Position numbers and translations under genes: made by a program. A stretch of DNA of 64,000 nucleotides from positions 783,297-847,296 of the forward strand of contig JAUJMU010000001.1 of the NCBI GenBank assembly GCA_030446715.1, read 5' to 3'. Under the pieces are notes generated by a model. That model saw only the letters and a list, made by a program, of their open reading frames with translations, did no database searches and had not been told where the DNA came from. This stretch comes from Cytophagales bacterium. GTDB taxonomy: Bacteria > Bacteroidota > Bacteroidia > Cytophagales > 172606-1. This document shows, in pieces, positions 9,110-37,934 of the stretch (position 1 is the stretch's first letter; the number at the start of each line of letters is the position of its first letter).

Positions 9110-9154
9110 AAATTGACAATTGAAAATTGATAACTGACAATGGAAAATGACAAC
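9110..9154. repeat. Stuttered GACAATTGAAAATTG element
   Basis: About 45 nt made of variants of one word: TTGACAATTGAAAATTGA, then TAACTGACAATGGAAAATGA. It lies upstream of the isomerase/epimerase start and downstream of the Uma2 gene. No clear inverted partner is present, so this may be half an element of the same general kind as the other stuttered repeats here. Confidence 0.6.
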
Positions 9155-9240
9155 TCCCCGGGAGATGCTTTGCGGGCAGGGTTACCGGGTTTCCTTCCTG
9201 TCTCCCCGGCTACCCGATCAGCAATTCAGTCATTCAATTA

Positions 9241-12070: not shown

Positions 12071-12304
12071 ATGTGGAAAGAAGAAGACAACAAGTTAAAG
12101 AAATCCTTTCAGTTCGGGGATTTTACGGAGGCTTTTGCGTTTATGACCAAAGTAGCCTTTGCTGCCGAAAAAATGAACCATCATCCCTGGTGGGCCAACG
12201 TATACAACCGGGTAGATATCGAACTGAACACCCATGACGCCGGCAATATCGTAACGGATAAAGACCGCAAACTGGCGGAGAAAATTGATAAGATTTACGG
12301 GTAA
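12071..12304 (+). CDS. phhB: 4a-hydroxytetrahydrobiopterin dehydratase
   Basis: A 77-residue pterin-4a-carbinolamine dehydratase (PCD/DCoH). The family core [44 protein letters not shown] carries the active-site His-His-Pro motif and following Asn-Val-Tyr. It recycles the pterin cofactor of aromatic amino acid hydroxylases; a role in molybdopterin or other pterin chemistry is also possible. The ATG at 12071 gives a normal-length N-terminus; an upstream in-frame ATG at 11981 would add 30 residues with no family match. The stop codon is followed after 2 nt by a stuttered repeat. Confidence 0.9.
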
Positions 12305-12306
12305 CT

Positions 12307-12431
12307 GCTGAATTGTTGCTTTGCTAAATTGTTATAGAGTGGTATGGCCAAGTGGCCGGATGGCTGAATTGTTAAATTGTTGCATTGCTGAATTGTTCAG
12401 CTATTCAGCCTTCAGCCATTTAACAATTTAA
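12307..12431. repeat. Stuttered GCTGAATTGTT element, copy 1
   Basis: GCTGAATTGTT occurs three times (12307, 12363, 12387) with related words AAATTGTT, GGTATGGCC and GGATGGCTGAA between. The right end carries the inverted words TTCAGCC, CAGCCATTTAAC and AACAATTTAA (12422-12431), which pair with TTAAATTGTT (12372-12381). The element fills nearly the whole gap between phhB and rsmI. Related elements are at 30094-30143 and 37852-37934. Confidence 0.75.
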
Positions 12432-12442
12432 TCATACATCCT

Positions 12443-13120
12443 ATGCCGCCATCCCTGTACCTGGTCCCTACGCCCATCGGCAATCTGGAAGATATTACGC
12501 TGCGGGCCATCCGGGTGCTGAAGGAGGCCGATGTGGTGCTGGCGGAGGATACGCGCAATACGGGCATGTTGCTCAAACACCTGCAGCTTTCAAAGCCGCT
12601 GCAGAGCCACCATGCCTTCAATGAACACCAGACGCTGAATAATCTGGTGGAGCGGATGAAAAAGGGGGAGAAAATGGCCCTGGTGTCGGATGCGGGTACG
12701 CCGGCTATTTCGGACCCGGGATTCCTGCTGGTGCGGGCCTGCCTGCAGAACGGTCTGGAAGTAGAGTGCCTGCCCGGTCCCACGGCGTTTGTGCCGGCCC
12801 TGGTAAAATCCGGGCTGCCCTGCGACCGTTTTACGTTCGAGGGATTTCTGCCCCAGAAGAAAGGCCGCCAGACGCGGCTGCTGGCCCTGGCGGAGGAGGA
12901 ACGGACCATGATTTTTTACGAGTCGCCGCACCGGCTGGTGAAAACGCTGACGCAGTTTGCTGAATTCTGGGGAACTGACCGGCTGGCCTCCGTGTCGCGG
13001 GAGCTGACGAAATTATTCGAAGAAACTGTAAACGGTACCCTGAGTGAGATCATCACTCATTTTGCCGGTAAAACTGTAAAGGGAGAAATTGTCATTGTGG
13101 TCGGGGGTAAAAATGATTAA
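12443..13120 (+). CDS. rsmI: 16S rRNA (cytidine1402-2'-O)-methyltransferase
   Basis: A 225-residue RsmI, which uses S-adenosylmethionine to 2'-O-methylate C1402 of 16S rRNA. All family motifs are present: LYLVPTPIGNLEDITLRA at the N-terminus, VLAEDTRNTGMLLKHL, ALVSDAGTPAISDPG, CLPGPTAFVPALVKSGLP, and FYESPHRLVKTL. Length is slightly below the usual 270-290 because the C-terminal extension is absent, as in many Bacteroidota. Its 3' end overlaps the start of the Lnb-like gene by 8 nt, indicating translational coupling. Confidence 0.95.
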   Translation: MPPSLYLVPTPIGNLEDITLRAIRVLKEADVVLAEDTRNTGMLLKHLQLSKPLQSHHAFNEHQTLNNLVERMKKGEKMALVSDAGTPAISDPGFLLVRACLQNGLEVECLPGPTAFVPALVKSGLPCDRFTFEGFLPQKKGRQTRLLALAEEERTMIFYESPHRLVKTLTQFAEFWGTDRLASVSRELTKLFEETVNGTLSEIITHFAGKTVKGEIVIVVGGKND

Positions 13121-20100: not shown

Positions 20101-20108
20101 GGGCAGGG

Positions 20109-20172
20109 TTTGTCAGAATCGGGATTTGTCGGAATCAGGATGCGCAAGATTACCGGATTATCCGGATTCAGG
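20109..20172. repeat. Stuttered GTCAGAATCGGGATT element
   Basis: TTTGTCAGAATCGGGAT is directly followed by TTTGTCGGAATCAGGAT (20109-20141), then CCGGATTATCCGGATTCAGG (20153-20172). It sits between the start of the radical SAM gene and the USP gene, which are divergent. Same general design as the other stuttered repeats but different words. The rest of the 279-nt gap shows no gene. Confidence 0.6.
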
Positions 20173-30025: not shown

Positions 30026-30093
30026 TTGACAATGGGTGCAGCCGGGCAAATCTGGATTTAAGAACCCTCTTCTGGTCATTTCCCGAACCTCTG

Positions 30094-30143
30094 ACGATTC
30101 AACAGTTAAACAATTCAACCATATAACCACATATAACCATTCA
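30094..30143. repeat. Stuttered AACCAT/GATTCAAC element, copy 2
   Basis: About 50 nt of overlapping words: CGATTCAACAG, AACAATTCAACCATATAACC and ACATATAACCATTCAG. These are the complements of the words in the elements at 12307-12431 and 37852-37934. Only one arm is present here. Confidence 0.6.
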
Positions 30144-30184
30144 GGTACAACCTCATTTGTCAGTACACCTAACACCTACTTACC

Positions 30185-31151: not shown

Positions 31152-31260
31152 TCAGTCGTAAGTCGTAAGGGGTTTGGCGGGAGGAAACCGGGGCGTCAGT
31201 CCCTGCCAACTGCTTACTGCAAACTTACGACTGGCGACTTACGACTCTGGACTTACGACT
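31152..31260. repeat. Stuttered GTCGTAAGT hairpin element, copy 2
   Basis: GTCGTAAGTCGTAAGGGG on the left (31155-31172) and three ACTTACGACT words on the right (about 31223-31260) flank a loop of about 50 nt. It starts 2 nt after the quinone reductase stop and ends 17 nt before the converging amidohydrolase stop, so it could serve both genes as a 3'-end structure. It is a sister of the element at 9887-10016. Confidence 0.8.
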
Positions 31261-31276
31261 ACCACTGCCATCAAGC

Positions 31277-32557: not shown

Positions 32558-32573
32558 GAGTTTTAAGAAGCCA

Positions 32574-32600
32574 GAAGTGAGAAGCGGGGAGTGAGAATGG
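32574..32600. repeat. Stuttered GAAGTGAGAA element, copy 2
   Basis: GAAGTGAGAAGCGGGGAGTG then AGAATGG, a one-sided relative of the hairpin at 27795-27841. It lies between the SnoaL-like gene and the amidohydrolase gene. Confidence 0.6.
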
Positions 32601-37851: not shown

Positions 37852-37934
37852 AGGTAATGGTTATATGGTCGAATGGCTGAATGGTTGTTGAGTTGACCAT
37901 CCAGCCATATGACCATACAACCATTCAGCCATAA
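37852..37934. repeat. Stuttered TGGCTGAATGGTTG hairpin, copy 3
   Basis: TGGCTGAATGGTTG (37874-37887) pairs perfectly with CAACCATTCAGCCA (37918-37931). Around the loop lie further variants: GGTTATATGGTCGAATGG on the left and CATCCAGCCATATGACCATA on the right. It fills most of the gap between menD and menB. Confidence 0.8.

Follow-up and report, generated by a model that had tools for sequence, protein, structure and literature searches.

Three intergenic elements in the window, the 64,000-nucleotide stretch of a Cytophagales bacterium genome analyzed here, belong to a genome-wide family whose arms are tandem arrays of degenerate octamers, and inverted arrays of 7- or 8-nt words flank many genes of IVP (S23p), a small orphan protein known from the intervening sequences (IVS) of 23S rRNA, in this and other genomes. 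Some of these IVP arms share their vocabulary with ORF-less arrays in the genome of the window (G000). We hypothesize that the elements of the window, which carry no ORF, are intergenic relatives of IVS/S23p elements, with arms that change by unit slippage, a reading in which we place about even confidence.

Octamer-word elements and their placement

G000 comprises 6.43 Mb in 25 contigs and is 98% complete; judged by the RsmI protein, its closest named relative is a Cytophagales MAG (78% identity), in a search that may not have included the record of G000 itself. The following word arrays were found in the window, the first three sharing one vocabulary:

12307..12431, + strand: element 1, octamer words with inverted repeat, folding z -2.9
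30074..30143, - strand: element 2, half element delimited by eye, no inverted repeat, z +0.7
37852..37934, + strand: element 3, hairpin of octamer words with inverted repeat, z -7.6
31154..31262, + strand: hairpin of another vocabulary (heptamers AGTCGTA / ACTTACG), z -2.5, words repeated in the sister species G001
9111..9155, + strand: period-7 array of AATTGAC words, no inverted partner found
20104..20141, + strand: period-16 (8 + 8) array of CAGGATTTGTCAGAAT words
32566..32597, + strand: short period-7/14 array of AGAAGTG words

The original prediction described a small vocabulary shared in differing order by 12307-12431, 30094-30143 and 37852-37934, with or without an inverted arm. The words are present at all three places, with inverted arms in elements 1 and 3 and none in element 2, and the differing order of a common vocabulary is seen across elements. 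The observation is real and extends genome-wide, with the correction that the words are degenerate octamers in strict period 8, with the skeleton ATKGYYNN. The elements were also said to make up almost the whole gap in two cases, which is true of element 1 (125 of 138 bp, between an ORF ending at 12304 and an RsmI-like ORF starting at 12443) but not of the others: element 3 takes up 83 of 161 bp, and element 2, counted together with its half core, about 70 of 159 bp.

In element 1 direct words at 12312-12397 are followed by inverted words to about 12431, while the arms of element 3 (37856-37885 and 37896-37925) are 87% complementary, with inverted words running on to 37933; both elements fold better than their dinucleotide shuffles. 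Element 2 consists, by eye, of half of a core (core A, about 30074-30095) and a single octamer arm (30094-30143), its half status resting on comparison by eye with the core of other copies; a search for an inverted repeat in it found none, and it does not fold better than dinucleotide shuffles. An outer box, TTGTCAGTACA or close variants, recurs by eye near elements (30157-30168 of the window, about 151.2 kb of contig C2 and about 253.6 kb of C4), in a AACCTTNCTTGTCA-like context.

Across the genome the word family recurs in both orientations: a degenerate four-unit pattern built on the skeleton matched 154 times (74 + 80 by orientation), and the same pattern read backward gave 0 + 0 matches. 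Most elements are imperfect hairpins of an arm, a short core and an inverted arm. A chain finder, which misses element 2, returned 25 elements in 1.10 Mb of contiguous sequence (the window, 240 kb of C10 and 400 kb each of C2 and C4), which extrapolates to about 145 per genome. The skeleton is kept in 119 of the 159 units that stand between two skeleton units; position 3 of the octamer is divided between two bases, as is position 5, and the final letter pair varies with the word that follows (AT before ATGG in 26 of 28, GC before ATTG in 22 of 25). Two core types recur, and by eye core A is present in about 11 elements, one copy having lost exactly one 8-nt unit relative to the others. This one-unit deletion and the perfect octamer runs of 20 and more units in a sister genome are compatible with unit slippage. 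Perfect runs of ATTGTTGA reach 22 skeleton units in locus L255 (G002:C39) and 7 in L040 (G004). At C2 96667 and C8 about 87604 of G000, stretches of about 100 N stand immediately next to word arrays or ATGGT/CCAT words; the assembly may therefore break at long arrays, and their count may be too low.

The original prediction was to be given up if the words were equally common inside genes. Among 52 elements compared with our own simple gene calls (1,379 genes), 2 could not be placed and none of the remaining 50 lies inside a called gene, so the prediction stands on this point. Codirectional gaps hold 36 elements, convergent gaps 13 and divergent gaps 1, compared with 578, 160 and 211 among all 949 gaps, and divergent gaps are thus avoided (1/50 versus 211/949, Fisher p = 1.2e-4). 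Such avoidance is not significant for the period-7 arrays (9/70, p = 0.07; 4 more lie in called genes), nor is the nearness of the octamer elements to stop rather than start codons (median 31 versus 52 nt, n = 34, p = 0.08). How core A is oriented relative to genes was uninformative. Intrinsic terminators were rejected as candidates, since TTTT within 20 nt to the right (5 of 52) and AAAA within 20 nt to the left (4 of 52) show no excess over random intergenic 20-mers (15.6% and 15.1% of 749), as were known RNA families, with 0 Rfam matches in the window at gathering score.

Word arrays of other vocabularies and other genomes

The octamers are one among several vocabularies of G000. In 853 of its gaps (80-600 bp), self-similar stretches with at least 21 of 30 self-matches had period 7 in 55 gaps, 8 in 38, 14 in 30 and 16 in 26, the remaining periods from 4 to 15 accounting for at most 3 each and shuffles for about 0.3 or fewer; the period-7 arrays themselves draw on several vocabularies. 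Over the whole sequence of 80 other loci, coding regions included, there were 47, 14 and 15 arrays at periods 7, 8 and 9, and given the 15 of period 9 the clean 7/8 spectrum has been shown only in the gaps of G000. An inverted partner lay within 250 bp of 54 of 137 arrays in G000, 24 of 47 in genome G002 and 29 of 82 in a set of 80 named loci from Bacteroidota and neighbors. When flanks were exchanged with those of other arrays, the rates were 5%, 10% and 1.5%, and random stretches gave at most 1%. Copies in direct orientation numbered 6, 0 and 10, respectively.

Besides G000, the octamer pattern was matched in 5 of 58 relatives and, across the phylum, in 20 of 295 genomes, some of these being perfect repeats or single matches, and was absent from the sister species G001. 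Because the reversed control pattern was matched in 3 of 59 relatives and 9 of 296 phylum genomes, genomes with one or two octamer matches may owe them to chance. For 4 of the 5 word-array gaps of the window with a G001 counterpart, that counterpart contains, by eye, another word array or a palindrome. The G001 counterparts were as follows:

9.1 kb gap: palindrome without word array
30.0 kb gap: GCAAAG-type words (word hairpins, L236, G001:C360)
31.15 kb gap: TGCCTACTGCC-type words
32.57 kb gap: AACATCG-type heptamers
37.8 kb gap: GACGCGATTCATCGCGTC palindrome (L236, G001:C360)

The AGTCGTA heptamer family found at 31.15 kb of the window recurs in G001, often as inverted pairs. In G002 the element 1 gap holds an octamer element with other words and the element 3 gap holds none, while the gap of one G002 octamer element is without one in G000; another two pairings were too remote to be relied on. 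The single gap filled in both G000 and G002 may be a coincidence.

IVP genes between inverted word arrays

At loci L269 and L271, two inverted octamer arrays whose starts lie about 415 bp apart enclose an ORF that matches 23S_rRNA_IVP (PF05635, E 1e-20 and 8e-23) and TIGR02436, and at L464 and L471 an IVP gene likewise lies between octamer arrays; the four genomes belong to a single family and the site is apparently the same, so that these cases may represent one event. We therefore scored the flanks of 75 IVP genes that had both flanks present and were not chosen by them (30 loci of best family matches, further loci by list place and genes in other DNA examined, about 20 of the genes coming from genomes with octamer arrays), a set in which orthologues were retained so that cases are not independent. 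Inverted flanks were found at 49 of these genes at score 12, 37 at score 14 and 28 at score 16, with 2.5%, 0.9% and 0.4% for mismatched flank pairs. Among controls they were found at 2 of 349 small genes of G000 that have a gap on either side, and at 1 of 67 RsmI genes (from 80 loci, 13 left out); an earlier IVP subset had given 17 of 31. The inverted flanks are mostly 7/8-nt word arrays, the arrays lying mostly close to the IVP start and stop. Period 7 was present in 46 and period 8 in 14 of 150 IVP flank windows, and about 8 and 4 times more rarely in control flanks (28 and 16 of 710). Of 14 IVP genes on named plasmids of cyanobacteria, 7 have inverted flanks (6.6% of mismatched pairs); examples are Nostoc edaphicum, with AGTAGGG words, and Picosynechococcus PCC 7003, in which the IVP gene has a Cmr gene on either side.

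Several observations argue against the view that the window elements are relatives of IVS elements. No inverted flanks at threshold were found for 26 of the 75 IVP genes, or for 7 of the 14 on plasmids, and G001 has 2 IVP genes but no octamers. G000 has 7 IVP genes, and among the 5 inspected none uses the octamer (ATKG) vocabulary. Of the 10 arms of G000 IVP genes, two match 18 and 21 other places in 1.66 Mb (reversed control 0), but six match only 0-3 other places and two were uninformative; at one gene the reversed control produced as many matches as the arms did (6 vs 7, 4 vs 4). We noticed no likeness of element cores to IVP genes. In favor of the view, genomes with octamer arrays carry more IVP genes (median 8, n = 26) than those without (median 3, n = 54; p = 3e-5), a comparison in which the 54 genomes were hand-picked and kinship was uncontrolled.

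We note that genes other than IVP also occur beside word arrays. GxxExxY (PDDEXK_3) nuclease genes have arrays nearby in L477 (G002), L164, L518 (Bernardetia plasmid) and L519, with inverted flanks at threshold in 2 of 4 scored, which we regard as a lead only. In L467 and L468 (G127), small ORFs lie between same-direction octamer arrays; by eye, those of L467 resemble an antitoxin/RelE-type pair and that of L468 a HEPN-type protein. IVP genes themselves sit, by eye, between nuoC/nuoD-like operon genes in L417 and L420 and precede a leuD-like gene in L435 and L445; by annotation they lie between cas/cmr genes on plasmids (L506, L508, L515).

Known systems and the origin of the elements

Some known IVS lack the S23p/IVP ORF, as do the window copies; a model built for this analysis found no IVP ORF of at least 80 aa anywhere in the window. 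In L269, L271, L464 and L471 the ORF lies between octamer arms. Elements 1 and 3, but not element 2, resemble rRNA IVS in being stem-loops with inverted termini, and the likeness extends to a PF05635 gene in the full form, seen here in other genomes, and to a patchy distribution. Unlike rRNA IVS, the three elements lie between protein-coding ORFs, with no rRNA match in the window. Outside rRNA and without an ORF, they are not IVS elements by membership, yet they have the IVS architecture. As described in the parts of PMC4990558 considered here, the IVS of Coxiella burnetii is a 428-nt stem-loop element in 23S rRNA with the S23p ORF inside, preceded by tandem heptamers whose number is strain dependent, and RNase III cuts its stem at the first heptamer repeat; the paper regards the function and origin of the element as unclear. 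The tandem words are heptamers in Coxiella and octamers in the three window elements; heptamers also make up the hairpin at 31154-31262 and most of the other IVP flanks that have a clear period. Apart from the heptamers inside the Coxiella IVS, the portion of the literature searched showed no paper that connects S23p/IVP genes with word arrays in gaps.

Cyanobacterial heptamer arrays are known as STRR. With these and with long simple sequence repeats the G000 arrays share intergenic tandem short units, patchiness and several vocabularies, but they are often inverted pairs, strongly degenerate, also of 8 nt and enriched at IVP genes; against a unit of about 7 nt in STRR and long simple sequence repeats, the octamer family has 8 and other G000 arrays 7. 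The portion of PMC4679880 considered here describes TAACTGA arrays as direct repeats with a single indirect one, and reports from Mrazek et al. that heptamers are the commonest long-repeat unit in most genomes, with polymerase slippage proposed.

REP/BIME elements are intergenic palindromes of mosaic composition that are rare in divergent gaps. The octamer elements share all three properties, and the genome has two Y1_Tnp genes, but the arms are period-8 word arrays of variable length, and the 3.3-kb locus of each Y1_Tnp gene (0 of 2) holds no octamer chain. This bears out the view that the elements are unlike REPs and makes their movement by a Y1 (RAYT) transposase exceedingly improbable.

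Under the reading that we favor, an element comprises a pair of inverted arms, both built of degenerate 7- or 8-nt words in tandem, and between them a centre that may be a short core, as in the window copies, or an IVP/S23p gene of about 125 codons. Copies occupy gaps and almost without exception follow at least one gene, a position in which the transcript can fold into a long hairpin. Arm length and diversity would change mainly by whole-unit slippage, probably the main mutational route, and by substitution within a fixed skeleton, so that any arm could pair with any other of the same vocabulary. The ORF-less copies may derive from IVP elements or have been spread by them, and RNase III may cut intergenic hairpins in mRNA by analogy with rRNA IVS. 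Descent and mobility are inferences, and no movement was observed.

Arms are in fact interchangeable, each able to pair with any other. The likeness of a left arm to the reverse-complemented right arm was 0.49 within elements and 0.51 between them (28 pairs, p = 0.85), and RNA duplexes had an energy of -27.1 kcal/mol between the two arms of an element, compared with -28.6 when arms were exchanged (26 pairs, p = 0.87). Selection for a hairpin of matched arms is unsupported, own arms being no more alike and no better paired than arms of different elements. The same results leave without support the proposal that local template switching produced the shuffled words: inverted arms are present and the words stand in differing order, but arms do not match within elements, and word order is kept between congeners. 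In the two congeneric comparisons made, orthologous arms retained both words and order. An ORF-less hairpin in G178/G089 is identical at 73 of 78 positions (neighbor gene 323/400, adjoining spacer 26/62), and an IVP cassette in G137/G229 at 32/34 and 32/32 in the arms (ORF 349/381, flanking stretches 241/310 and 259/300). Word order thus persists between congeners. At the element 1 gap, the sole gap filled in both G000 and G002, words and order differ, which argues against simple vertical stability. We consider template switching highly improbable as the source of the word order; it may have acted in the remote origin of an inverted arm. The conservation of the ORF-less hairpin above its neighbor gene and spacer, the strong fold of element 3 and the scarcity in divergent gaps (1/50 versus 211/949) would fit hairpins kept as RNA-processing or mRNA-stabilizing structures at 3' ends and between operon genes, their likeness to IVP flanks being secondary. 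We regard this as rather improbable given that exchanged arms pair as well as own arms, that position relative to stop and start is not significant (p = 0.08), and that presence in relatives is patchy, the same gaps holding other contents in the sister species.

The main rival to descent from IVS-like elements is that word hairpins arise and persist independently, slippage-prone, structured gaps being their source, and that IVP and other small genes insert into existing hairpin loops, much as rRNA IVS occupy the loops of rRNA helices, where they replace tetraloops (PMC4990558, in the parts considered). There are many more arrays (137 in 1.66 Mb) than IVP genes (7 in the whole genome), and other small genes lie between arrays (the GxxExxY nuclease of L164 and L518, the small ORFs of L467 and L468). 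Against this, the arrays lie mostly close to the IVP start and stop, and inverted flanks are far commoner at IVP genes than at other small genes, and we judge such insertion somewhat unlikely.

More broadly, and as a tentative possibility, the orphan heptamer and octamer gap arrays of Bacteroidota and Cyanobacteria, taken as a class, could be the arms of a single, widespread type of mobile element. In its full form this element would contain an S23p/IVP gene or, in some cases, a GxxExxY nuclease or other small gene instead, and rRNA IVS would be the special case that landed in rRNA. If so, the arrays would gain an origin and S23p a role, in the recognition or mobilization of word-array hairpins. 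Two old puzzles, the short-unit arrays of gaps and the function and mobility of S23p, are treated apart in the literature that we found, and the mirrored word arrays at IVP genes hint at a shared origin. Were hairpins and IVP genes one element, arm binding by S23p, processing by RNase III and movement of ORF-less copies would become testable. The near-exclusive 7/8-nt periodicity of the G000 arrays constrains the slippage or recognition machinery that makes them.
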